A stretch of DNA of 64,000 nt from Salinirubrum litoreum (GTDB lineage Archaea; Halobacteriota; Halobacteria; Halobacteriales; Haloferacaceae): contig NZ_JAJCVJ010000002.1 of NCBI RefSeq assembly GCF_020567425.1, positions 248,001 through 312,000 on the forward strand, read 5' to 3'. The number at the start of each line of letters is the position of its first letter. Position 1 is the stretch's first letter. The notes beneath the pieces were generated by a model. The model was given only the letters and a program-made list of their open reading frames with translations. It searched no databases and was not told the origin of the DNA. Below, one piece after another: positions 13,863 to 56,539 of the stretch. Position numbers and translations under genes: made by a program.

Positions 13863-14530
13863 TGTGATCGGAGAAAACTCGGTCGAGTCGGTCGCGGACA
13901 CTTCTGTCGAATCTGTCGCGGACGCTTCTGTCGCGGACGACAAGAGGTGAAAGCCCCCGGCCCCTTTCAGTCCCACCCGAAACTGTGCGACCCATCGTGT
14001 CGTCACCGGTCGTCACCCGGTTTCGCAACGCGGTGGTGGGAACCCGGCGGTCGCAGTGATCCCCGACCCTCCCCGACTGCCGACGACGCGACCTGCGAGC
14101 AGGTCCTCACAGAGTTCGGACACTGCTCGGTTTCGGTCGTCGGCAGATCGCGTCCGGACTGGGTTCCGGGTGTCGAAGTGGAGTCAGGTGACGAGTTGAG
14201 TGTGCGCTTCGATTCAATTTCCGGCGCGCGCGAGCAACCGCGCGCGAGGGAGGGGACCGGGCGGTGCGAAGAGGTCCCCGAGGCTGGGGAGGACGAGGTG
14301 CGGTGCCGTGCTGTCGCGGATGCGGTCGCGGTGCTGTCGCTGTCGAGTATTTTGTTTGTCCCGGATTGAGTAGCGGTACCGGTGCGGTTGCGGTCTGCAG
14401 TGCGGGCTTCTCGGAGATGCGCTACGACGTGTAGCGGTGCTGTCGCGGTCACGGTCTGCGGTGCTGATGCTGTCGTTGTACCAGTCGCGGTCGGTGTGCA
14501 GTCACGAACTCCGATCCCACGCACAGTCTA
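13863..14530 (+). repeat. Copy A of a structured noncoding element
   Basis: A stretch of about 650 bases, between convergent genes, with a clear relative at 22018-22700 in the same orientation. In order it has: GGTGAAAG (13946-13953) facing CTTTCA (13964-13969) and then GTCCCACC; a long stem 14077-14087 with 14136-14146 (11 bp) that encloses stem 14096-14102 with 14123-14129 (7 bp); a CGCGCGCG hairpin at 14225-14246; a 7-bp hairpin 14252-14258 with 14273-14279 and loop GGGCGGTGCGAAGA; the conserved tail CCGAGGCTGGGGAGGACGAGGTGC; and a low-complexity run of GCGGT and GCTGT triplets. Several base differences from copy B are paired and preserve the stems. It is not a protein gene. The boundaries are approximate. 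Confidence 0.75.
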
Positions 14531-22017: not shown

Positions 22018-22700
22018 CTCCTGTCGAATCGGTCGAGTCGGTGCCTGACAACTCGGTCGAATCAGTCGTGGGCGACGAGGGGTGAAAGCCCCTGCGCTCT
22101 CGACCTCCCGCGACTTGGTGCGCGCTTCCCTCAGGCTGGCGGGGCAAGCCCGCCAGCCTTCAGTCCAGTGCTACCGGCGCCGGGGGGAGGGCCGAGAGCG
22201 CGGCCCCTTTCAGTCCCACCCGGAACTGTGCGACCCACCACGTCGTCACTGGTCGTCACCCGGTGGGTCGTCGCAGGTCTGGAACCCGGCGTGGCTCGTA
22301 CTCCCCACTCCTCCCCGACTGCTGACGACCGAACTGCGGGCAGGTCCTCGCTGTCGCTCGGACACTGCCCGGTTTCGGTCGTCACCAGCTCGCATCCTCA
22401 GTGGGTTCCGAGTGTCGAACTGTGGTTGGGTGACGAGTGTGGCGTGGGCTTTCACTCACGATCCGGCGCGCGCGACTGACGCGCGCGAGGGAGGCCACCG
22501 GGCGGTGCGGAGAGGTGGCCGAGGCTGGGGAGGACGAGGTGCAGATGCGGTCGCGGTCTGCGGTGCGGTTGCGGTTCCTCGCGCTCGCACGAGTAGCGGT
22601 GCTGGTGCGGTCGTGGTTGCAGAGGATGTCGCAGTCGCAGTTTGCGGTGCTATCGCACTTCCAATCTCAATCGGCGATACCGCCACAGTCACGGTTGCAG
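22018..22700 (+). repeat. Copy B of a structured noncoding element
   Basis: Related to 13863-14530, same orientation, again between convergent genes. Shared parts are GTCGAATC upstream, GGTGAAAGCCCC (22081), CCCCTTTCAGTCCCACC (22204-22220), AACTGTGCGACCCA, the P1 stem 22319-22330 with 22377-22388 (one C-C mismatch) around P2 22337-22343 with 22365-22371, the CGCGCGCG hairpin 22467-22487, the 7-bp hairpin 22493-22499 with 22514-22520 (loop GGGCGGTGCGGAGA), the tail CCGAGGCTGGGGAGGACGAGGTGC and low-complexity GCGGT runs. In this copy the first hairpin carries about 110 extra bases, closed by GCGCTCTCG (22094) and CGAGAGCGC (22193), with a perfect 11-bp hairpin 22133-22143/22149-22159 inside. 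Confidence 0.75.
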
Positions 22701-37527: not shown

Positions 37528-37696
37528 GGGCACACCTTCGGCGCACCCGTGTAAAAACTACTCACCTTCGGCGCGTTGTGGACCGACAGTGACGGCAGTC
37601 GAGCGCGTCGCCACTGGGCGAGGCGAACGCAGGAGGAAGGTGGCTTGGTCAGCGCGGGGTCGTGCAGTCGATCGAAGTGGCTCGGAGTCGGTCGCC

Positions 37697-37969
37697 TCAG
37701 GTGTTGAGGAAGTAGACCTGCTTCCGGGCGTCCTTGAAGCTGTAGCGGGAGCCGACGAGGTCGGACTCCTCCAGGCGGTTCAGCGCGTAGCGGACGGTGC
37801 GGTCCGGCAGCAACGACTCCTCGGCGAGTTGGCCCTGCGAGAGCGGTGCGTCGCTCTCGAGTACTTTCGCGACGAGCTTCGCGCTCGGGGGAAGCTCGCG
37901 GAGACGTTCACGGAACTCGGCGTCGGAGAGGGGGTCCTCCCGGTTGGCCTCTGCGGTACTGGTGCTCAT
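37697..37969 (-). CDS. Winged-helix transcription regulator (paralogue 1)
   Basis: A 90-residue protein. After an acidic tail it reads RELPPSAKLVAKVLESDAPLSQGQLAEESLLPDRTVRYALNRLEE, a MarR/TrmB-like winged helix with recognition helix LPDRTVRYALNRL. It is clearly paralogous to the protein at 45742-46014 (PPSAKLVAKVL and LAEExLLPxRTVRYAL shared). It lies just upstream of polB on the same strand. GAACAG occurs near its own promoter (37987), as it does at the other copy. The targets are unknown. Confidence 0.85.
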   Translation of the reverse strand: MSTSTAEANREDPLSDAEFRERLRELPPSAKLVAKVLESDAPLSQGQLAEESLLPDRTVRYALNRLEESDLVGSRYSFKDARKQVYFLNT

Positions 37970-43727: not shown

Positions 43728-45277
43728 AGGAAGTCCTCCATCGAGACCTGGCTGTCGGTGTCGTCTGTGCTGTCGGCGTCGGTGTCGGTAGTGTCGTCCG
43801 CGGTTTCGGTGCCGTCGGTGTCGGTATCAATAGTGTCGTCTGCCGTTTCGGTGCTGTCGGCGTCGGTGTCGGGAGTGTCGTCTGCCGTTTCGGTGCCGTC
43901 GGTGTCGGCATCGGCAGTATCGACTGCGGTTTCAGTGTCGGAACTACTGGCGTCGTCGGTGTCAGCAGTCTCTGCTGTCTCGGGGCCGTCTCCGGCGAGG
44001 TCGTCTGCGGGTTCGGTGCTGGCTGCGGGTTCGTCTGTCTCGCCCGCGTCGGCCTCCGCTTCCACGTCGGTCTCGTCGGCTGCGTCGGTTGCGTCGGTTG
44101 CGTTGGCCGGGGCAGCAGGATTCGACTCGTCTTCGTGTGCTGCCGTCTCGCTCACCTCCGCCGGACTGAACGCCTCGTCGTCCGAGTCCAGGAGGTCGGT
44201 CACGCGCGTCTCGACCTCCTGGCGGACGTTCGAGTCCGCGACTTTGCTCGCCCGGACCGTCTCGTCAACGTCGCGGGCCGCCGTCGAGAGCCCCATCTCG
44301 CGGACACGCTCCCGGACGGCGTCGTCCGGGTCGGCGAAGGAGACGTCGATGTCGGTCTCCCCCTCCTCGATCTCCCGTCGGTCGGTCACGCGGGCGATCA
44401 GCGCGCCTGCCTCGGCGGCGTACTCCTCGACGCTCGCGGGCGTCACCGGCTCTCCCTCGCCCGTGATCTCGACGATCGCGACCGCGTCGTCGAGATCGAA
44501 CTGCCGGACTCGCTCGCGGACGCGTTCGATCCCTTCGCCCTCGCCGAGGTCGACCGAGACGAACGCGAAGTCGCGGGTGTAGTCGTCGAGCGACCGGCGA
44601 CTGATGTCGACGTCGTCGCCGAACTCGACGATGTTGTAGCCGCGTTCGTCGCGTTCGCTGGCGCTCGCGCGTTCGGTCGAACCGCAGTACGTGACCCACG
44701 TGCCGGCCACCTCGGCGGTGTCCGGCGTGTGGTTGTCGCCGAGGAGCAGCGCGTCGAAGTCGACGTTCGACTCGGCGAGCACCGTCTCGGTGTCCCAGTT
44801 CCCGTGGACGAACGGCGTGAACAGGCCGTGGCTGACGAGCACCGCGTGGGCGGCGTCGTGTGGTTCGAAGTCGTACGCGAGGTCGTCTCGGCGAGACTGC
44901 GGCACGTGGTCGAGGCCGTAGACCGCCACGTCGCCGAGGCGGTACGGCCCGGCCCCGAGTCTGGTCGCCAGGCCGAGGTTCTCGAACAGGTCGAGCCACT
45001 GTCCGCCCCGCGTGGACTCGTGGTTGCCGACGACCGCGAGAAAGGGGATGTCGGCGTCCGCGAGTGTCCGGAGGGCGGCGAGCGTCCCCAGCAAGTCCTG
45101 GAGGTCGGGCCGCCGGTCGTGGAACAGGTCGCCGGCGTGGATCACCGCGTCCACGTCGTCGTCGATGGCGTCGGCGACGACTGCCTCGAACGCGTCGAGG
45201 AAGTCCTGCCGGCGCTCCGGCGAGTGGTACTGCTGGTACCCGATGTGGGTGTCGCCGGTGTGGATCACCCGTGTCAT
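43724..45277 (-). CDS. mre11: DNA double-strand break repair nuclease Mre11
   Basis: A 517-residue Mre11. The phosphoesterase motifs are [49 protein letters not shown] and [10 protein letters not shown], all with their metal ligands. From about residue 375 the protein is an Asp/Glu/Thr/Ala-rich tail encoded by imperfect 42-bp tandem repeats. The final nine residues SQVSMEDFL contain QVSMEDFL, which fits the PIP-box consensus Qxx(L/M)xxF(F/L). It starts the mre11-rad50 operon and overlaps the upstream ORF by 4 bases. Confidence 0.96.
43767..43934. repeat. Four imperfect 42-bp tandem repeats in mre11
   Basis: Units start at 43767, 43809, 43851 and 43893, each 42 bp and each of the form GTGCTGTCGGCGTCGGTGTC plus an AGTGTCGTCTGCCGTTTCG-like second half. 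They encode 14-residue Asp/Thr/Glu/Ala repeats in the Mre11 tail. The reading frame is kept because the unit is a multiple of three. Confidence 0.85.
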
Positions 45278-45648: not shown

Positions 45649-45741
45649 GGGCGGTGTGGTCCCGTGATCGGTGAAAAGGGCTCGGTCGGGCGCAGACGGT
45701 GGCTCGCTGGGTGGTGCGGCGAGTCGACTCGCAGGGGGGCC

Positions 45742-46014
45742 TCAGATCGTCAGCGTGTAGATGCGCTTCCGGGCGTCGGTGAAAGAGAACCGCGAGTCCA
45801 CGGCGTCGGCGTCCTCCAGTCGGGAGAGGGCGTACCGGACGGTGCGGGACGGCAGCAGCGTCTCCTCGGCCAGTTGGCTCTGAGTCATCGTGTCCTCGTA
45901 GTCGAGCACCTTCGCCACGAGTTTCGCGCTCGGGGGCATCTCACGGATCGGCGTCCAGCGGTCGCCGGTCGTCTCCTCGCTCGCGTCGGCAGGTCTCGCT
46001 TCTGACGTACTCAT
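45742..46014 (-). CDS. Winged-helix transcription regulator (paralogue 2)
   Basis: A 90-residue paralogue of the protein at 37697-37969. MPPSAKLVAKVLDYEDTMTQSQLAEETLLPSRTVRYALSRLEDADAV is the winged helix, with FTDARKRIYTLTI at the end. It is divergent from PAN. A perfect inverted repeat GAACAG-N10-CTGTTC overlaps its TATA region (46037-46058), which suggests autoregulation and perhaps control of the divergent promoter region. Confidence 0.85.
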   Translation of the reverse strand: MSTSEARPADASEETTGDRWTPIREMPPSAKLVAKVLDYEDTMTQSQLAEETLLPSRTVRYALSRLEDADAVDSRFSFTDARKRIYTLTI

Positions 46015-56361: not shown

Positions 56362-56400
56362 TCGAGCGAGAAGCCTGATCGACCCCCGCGTCTCACCCCC

Positions 56401-56505
56401 CTCCACCCCGCCGACGCACACACCCTCCCACGGGGCTCTCCATCCTCCACCCCGCCGACGCACACACCCTCCCACGGGGCTCTCCATCCTCCACCCCGCC
56501 GGCGC
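56401..56505. repeat. 44-bp perfect tandem repeat, about 2.4 copies
   Basis: The 44-bp unit beginning CTCCACCCCGCCGACGCACA and ending GGGGCTCTCCATC is repeated exactly at 56401-56444 and 56445-56488, then a partial third copy runs to about 56505 before diverging (CGGCGCTCCC). It is noncoding, between two convergent genes. The perfect copies suggest recent expansion. Confidence 0.95.
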
Positions 56506-56539
56506 TCCCAGCCTCCCGATTCGGCTCGCGTCCGTCGAC

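Follow-up and report, generated by a model that had tools for sequence, protein, structure and literature searches.

Two copies of a repeated element in the stretch of haloarchaeal DNA analysed here (64,000 nucleotides, hereafter the window) differ by substitutions on both sides of their predicted stems, which raises the question of whether a fold is being preserved and, if so, in which kind of molecule. Here we report an analysis of these two copies (A and B), of their relatives in the same genome and of related units in other Halobacteria. The host is a haloarchaeon of the Haloferacaceae with a genome of 4.06 Mb, in which the window lies on contig C2; its closest named relative according to the UppS protein is Halogranum (84% identity), and no second genome of its genus was found among the relatives searched. 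Our preferred reading, to which we assign a probability just above one half (about 0.52), is that the copies belong to a dispersed, non-coding and non-autonomous family of structured repeats in which the fold of one strand (R+ and L−, see below) is under selection, most likely as RNA.

Modular structure of the repeats

The composite element consists of three structured modules, L, M (types A and B) and R, in each of which near-invariant anchors and loops are joined by stems whose letters vary widely between copies while their complementarity is kept. The L module comprises GAAAGCCCC, two variable stems (1 and 2) and inner hairpins, followed by GGCCCCTTTCAGTCCCACCC. The R module comprises GGCGCGCG-loop-CGCGCGAGGGAG, then a hairpin that is variable in its stem and near-invariant in its loop, and CGAGGCTGGGGAGGACGAGGTGC, or in short GGCGCGCG...GAGGGAG-hairpin-CGAGGCTGGGGAGG. 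Type A of the M module, to which both window copies belong, is present in 31 copies of the window's genome plus two shortened or altered ones, and type B in 50 copies. The coordinates of the two window copies are given in Table 1; R1 is a covariance model of the R module built from 15 sequences including copy A.

Table 1. Modules and stems of the two copies in the window, with the basis of each assignment.
Feature	Position	Strand	Basis and elements
Copy A, L module, shortest form, without inner variable stems	13949..13978	+	GAAAG 13949-13953; CTTTC 13964-13968; anchor GGCCCCTTTCAGTCCCACCC 13959-13978
Copy A, M module, type A	13979..14222	+	31-copy alignment, pair counts; nested stems 14010-14018/14186-14194, 14039-14045/14161-14167 and 14077-14087/14136-14146; inner stem ~14096-14129 (14096-14102/14123-14129)
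Copy A, R module	14223..14303	+	Model R1, 86.8 bits, E 1.2e-17 (copy A itself among the 15 sequences of R1); main stem 14225-14232/14239-14246; variable hairpin 14252-14258/14273-14279; conserved tail GAGGCTGGGGAGGACGAGGTGC 14280-14301
Copy B, full L module	22084..22221	+	Sequence reading, genome-wide anchor and stem counts; GAAAG 22084-22088; CTTTC 22207-22211; anchor 22202-22221; variable stem GCGCTCTCG 22094-22102/CGAGAGCGC 22193-22201; second stem CTCCC 22105-22109/GGGAG 22185-22189
Copy B, M module, type A	22222..22464	+	Sequence reading, 31-copy alignment; outer stem 22319-22329/22378-22388 (one C.C mismatch); inner stem 22337-22343/22365-22371
Copy B, R module	22465..22544	+	Model R1, 89.6 bits, E 2.9e-18 (copy B outside the training set of R1); variable hairpin 22493-22499/22514-22520

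In many L and R modules of the window's genome, extra perfect hairpins (such as GGCGGGACCTTCGGTCCCGCC-like cassettes) are inserted in the loops while the outer stems are still paired (e.g. L055, L064 and L131). An invariant CCTCCCC of the M module (14070-14076) is complementary to an invariant GGGGAGG of the R module (14285-14292), likewise in copy B, and the two are paired by RNAalifold; since both sides are invariant, this pairing gives no evidence of covariation. The window also contains a 42-nt unit in four direct tandem copies (43764-43973), a direct repeat of 209 nt with 74% identity (37694-37902 and 45739-45947) and a C-rich 44-nt unit in three tandem copies (56383-56514).

Covariation of the stems

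The initial annotation had taken the paired substitutions between copies A and B as strong evidence for selection on an RNA secondary structure. The letters and coordinates that it quoted are those of the sequence: the variable hairpin reads GGGGACC/GGTCCCC in copy A and GGCCACC/GGTGGCC in copy B, the inner stem reads CGAGCAG/CTGCTCG and CGGGCAG/CTGCCCG, respectively, and in the outer stem the pair C14081-G14142 of copy A is replaced by T22323-A22384 in copy B. The outer stem does not pair as cleanly as was assumed, because an adjacent C.C mismatch in copy B (22322/22385) had been overlooked; the corresponding column of the type A alignment lacks a standard pair in 14 of the 31 copies.

Wider sampling of stems in all three modules strongly supports the conservation of structure. 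For the R hairpin, 40 distinct 6-nt stems from the window's genome are 90.4% Watson-Crick paired, as compared with a mean of 42.9% and a maximum of 52.9% when the arms are shuffled between copies (2000 shuffles). A gap-free alignment of 15 copies of the 6-bp class has 98.9% of its cells paired and a covariation of 1.07 (0.21 when shuffled, with 0 of 500 shuffles reaching 1.07, and 0.02-0.26 with slid arms). Pairing in stem 1 of the L module is 0.796 against 0.595 in its shuffles (maximum 0.728), and stem 2 likewise exceeds its shuffles. The alignment of the 31 type A copies, with 46 pairs including the R main stem, is 93.6% paired (slid controls 31-39%) and has changes on both sides in 16 pairs, as opposed to 9.3 after shuffling (0/500).

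Relatedness between copies was taken into account with an R-scape-like procedure of our own, which redistributes substitutions over a tree and whose E-values are approximate. Applied to all columns of the 31 whole type A copies, it returned a single pair at E < 0.05, which lies outside the fold; because its power was too low, this test was replaced by one on 123 distinct R hairpins from the window's genome and others of several genera. This is the kind of larger alignment that the initial annotation had proposed, and in which a lack of significant covariation was to speak against its claim. Seven column pairs had E < 0.05, all of them nested pairs of the R hairpin (E 8e-12 to 0.03), so that stem covariation beyond shared ancestry, as expected of a structured non-coding RNA, was found. 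That the stems of R, L and M change their letters yet keep their pairing strongly supports the preservation of the fold itself. Folding energy was left out of the evidence because copy A, folded by itself, is in thermodynamic terms just mildly more stable than shuffled sequences (z −2.2 on the + strand, −3.1 on the − strand). In many units the R tail TGCGGTGC could pair with the L− loop GCACCGCA, to which it is complementary, but this pairing was set aside for want of demonstrated covariation.

Distribution among Halobacteria

Matches to R1 were found in at least 62 of 292 genomes and at least 19 of 77 genera of Halobacteria; these are lower bounds, since the filters were strict and no more than 16 candidates were scored in any genome. 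Among the named carriers are Halorubrum cibi, H. aquaticum, H. alkaliphilum, H. salipaludis and Haloparvum sedimenti. The typical unit in these other genomes is an R module followed by an inverted L module. Their R stems (29 distinct) are 88% complementary, compared with 54% when shuffled, and the terminal pair of L varies between sequences (CAAAG/CTTTG, CGAAG/CTTCG, GAAAG/CTTTC). As regards type A, matches in other genomes were mainly to the two end modules. The pattern of M type B, with 42 matches in the window's genome, has only scattered three-mismatch matches in 147 other genomes of the family, and type B looks lineage-specific. In the window's genus, L and R modules of order-wide occurrence would have been joined to a lineage-specific M module of two alternative types.

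Presence and absence of units at matching sites is clear in Halorubrum. Near uppS, R plus L is present in H. cibi and H. aquaticum; at the same site in Halorubrum sp. 48-1-W the R stem differs at four pairs, all of them compensated, and in H. alkaliphilum only 53 bp separate the aligned flanks that are 404 bp apart in H. cibi. Exact ends, terminal repeats or a target duplication, the last two being features expected of a MITE, were not definable at these sites, whose flanks are too diverged. Such a distribution suggests that the units are mobile. For copy B, the uppS orthologues of 80 named genomes yielded no clean empty site, because the genes that follow uppS are not in a conserved order. 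Among plasmid records, five from haloarchaea match a Halorubrum-type unit and none matches the window copy; no phage record matched the element. Several Halorubrum units (L252, L261, L274 and others) have tandem repeats of ~75 bp just past the inverted L, which carry GGCTGGGGCTTTGG followed by a TTTATAA sequence.

Working strand and comparison with known elements

If a single strand is the working form, G-U pairs are expected to be tolerated on that strand more than A-C pairs. Among distinct arms read in the R+/L− sense, 80 G-U stand against 35 A-C (counts that are not independent events), with ratios of 5:4 and 6:3 for the R hairpin, 17:6 and 18:11 for the R main stem, and 23:6 and 11:5 for the L stems. 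The M module, which contains the inner and outer stems of the initial annotation, has no such excess on the + strand (G-U 22, A-C 35). The G-U excess points to a single-stranded working form of the R+/L− strand, which is probably RNA from a putative transcript. TATA-like hexamers in other genomes are concentrated 14-24 nt upstream of the start of R, with none from −400 to −100; this position fits a candidate promoter, which would place the start of transcription ~25 nt downstream, inside the R stem. Most copies in the window's genome are without this site; these two points weigh against the preferred reading, as does the lack of a G-U excess in M. Single-stranded DNA or strand-biased deamination could yield a G-U excess of the same sign. 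Of the RNA secondary structure first proposed, the structure is strongly supported and its RNA nature no more than probable.

The fold might instead act as DNA, with hairpins of one strand being recognised by a transposase, a recombinase or a nucleoid protein without any RNA, as in the IS200/IS605-derived PATEs or in REPINs. We judge this possible but clearly less probable than the RNA reading. High copy number, intergenic placement and presence or absence between species agree with it, a bias of G-T over A-C on one strand is likewise expected of single-stranded DNA, and hairpins near the ends are typical of PATE-like elements (PMC3119063). The PATEs of Haloquadratum, which are related to IS200/IS605, resemble the present family in being non-coding, high-copy, haloarchaeal and palindromic, in that no obvious terminal inverted repeat is seen, in the heterogeneity of their sequence, and in being polymorphic between genomes (PMC3119063). 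By comparison of descriptions rather than sequences, the present family differs in that it has conserved loops on several hypervariable and independent stems, and it is also abundant in genomes that gave no match to a Y1 transposase. G013, which is 99% complete and has at least 14 R modules, had no match to the Y1 transposase (PF01797), and neither had G030 (81% complete); this argues against the DNA reading. A dependence on Y1 was rejected on account of such rich carriers, in which the availability of Y1 expected for PATEs and IS200/IS605 relatives was not observed. The window's genome has three Y1 matches, and neither an L nor an R motif was found in the flanks of its Y1 gene locus L163. A PATE or other IS200/IS605 derivative is expected to have palindromes close to its two ends whose sequence is related to that of the palindromes of an IS200/IS605 element in the same genome. 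In a search that covered Y1 loci, modules were not seen to flank the Y1 genes: only one of 12 such loci had a unit, ~1.4 kb away. Neither a terminal repeat nor a target duplication was seen at the Halorubrum sites with their diverged flanks. Some enzyme other than Y1 may mobilise the element.

REPs measure 20-40 bp and carry a GTAG or CGTC tag (PMC3116915, PMC3733652). Like REPs, BIMEs and REPINs, the present units are dispersed, intergenic, palindromic, modular and absent from genes (PMC3116915, PMC3733652). They differ in their modules of ~80-250 bp with several stems and in not requiring a Y1-type (RAYT) partner in all carriers; membership was rejected on the size, the number of stems and the missing Y1 of some rich carriers. 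With the structured RNAs of Rfam the family shares conserved loops and joints and stems that covary across genera; unlike them it has many copies per genome, which differ between related genomes, and its transcripts are putative. Searches of Rfam gave no match to the element even at permissive thresholds, and no score reached gathering level. Two sub-gathering matches to Acido-Lenti-1 (25.2 and 23 bits against 37) lie outside the R module, at L265:1404-1435 and L265:6-30. No description was found in searches of open papers by topic or motif, and the family is apparently undescribed so far.

Pairing could also be kept by mutation alone, if template switching at replication 'corrects' imperfect palindromes in both arms at once. 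Whole stems that differ together between unchanged flanks, and the perfect hairpins inserted in loops, are what such correction would produce. It is nevertheless improbable as the source of the pattern: correction alone does not explain the conservation of anchors, loops and stem positions across genera, on one strand standing G-U pairs are more numerous than A-C (80:35), and different sequences have switched the terminal pair of L.

Copy number and genomic placement

The window's genome has ~90 left and ~70 right modules; some L occur without R and some R without L (~90 copies read). Genome-wide, the left anchor GGCCCCTTTCAGTCCCACCC has 93 matches at no more than three mismatches; for the right anchor GAGGCTGGGGAGGACGAGGTGC the number is 36, and for the reversed controls it is 0 in both cases. 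Contig C3 (596 kb) is depleted in left anchors (2, where 13.7 are expected; P = 5e-5), and 30 of the 45 on contig C1 are clumped at 1.13-1.64 Mb.

When genes are called with a codon-usage program that was trained on the window, every one of the 86 left modules examined is intergenic. In the window, each copy is placed between two convergent genes, one pair being of the TatD and AstE/AspA types and the other of the UppS and HD-domain types. The genes next to the 86 left modules are convergent in 21 cases, tandem in 42 and divergent in 15, the rest being undetermined at locus ends; these counts are close to the background of gene pairs in the window (13:36:12), so the convergent neighbours of copies A and B reflect no family rule. 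The elements have no orientation bias, and their orientation does not follow that of tandem genes. A role as transcription terminators or 3' stabilisers of adjacent genes, which the setting of the window copies had favoured, is therefore very improbable and, as a general function, largely refuted by the neighbour counts and by the independence of element orientation from tandem genes.

Under the preferred reading, that of a non-autonomous haloarchaeal family built from structured modules and selected for the fold of one strand, most likely as RNA, the fold would serve the spread or maintenance of the element itself rather than the control of particular neighbouring genes. A more specific proposal, namely a hitherto undescribed, order-wide family of archaeal structured RNAs with dozens of dispersed copies and a promoter of its own, whose fold would be required for mobility or for a function in trans and whose L and R modules were rebuilt with two new M types in the window's genus, seems doubtful to us.

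Conclusions

This study adds a statistically clean example of pairing that is kept as the sequence drifts, dozens of times in a single genome and across one archaeal class, in a family intermediate between two known kinds of element, mobile palindromic repeats and structured RNAs. If the units work as RNA, they would constitute a high-copy archaeal RNA family that is missing from Rfam; if they work as DNA, they would represent a mobile element whose enzyme is yet to be named. With the covariance model, the anchors and the named carriers, either reading can be tested in Halorubrum that can be grown in culture.
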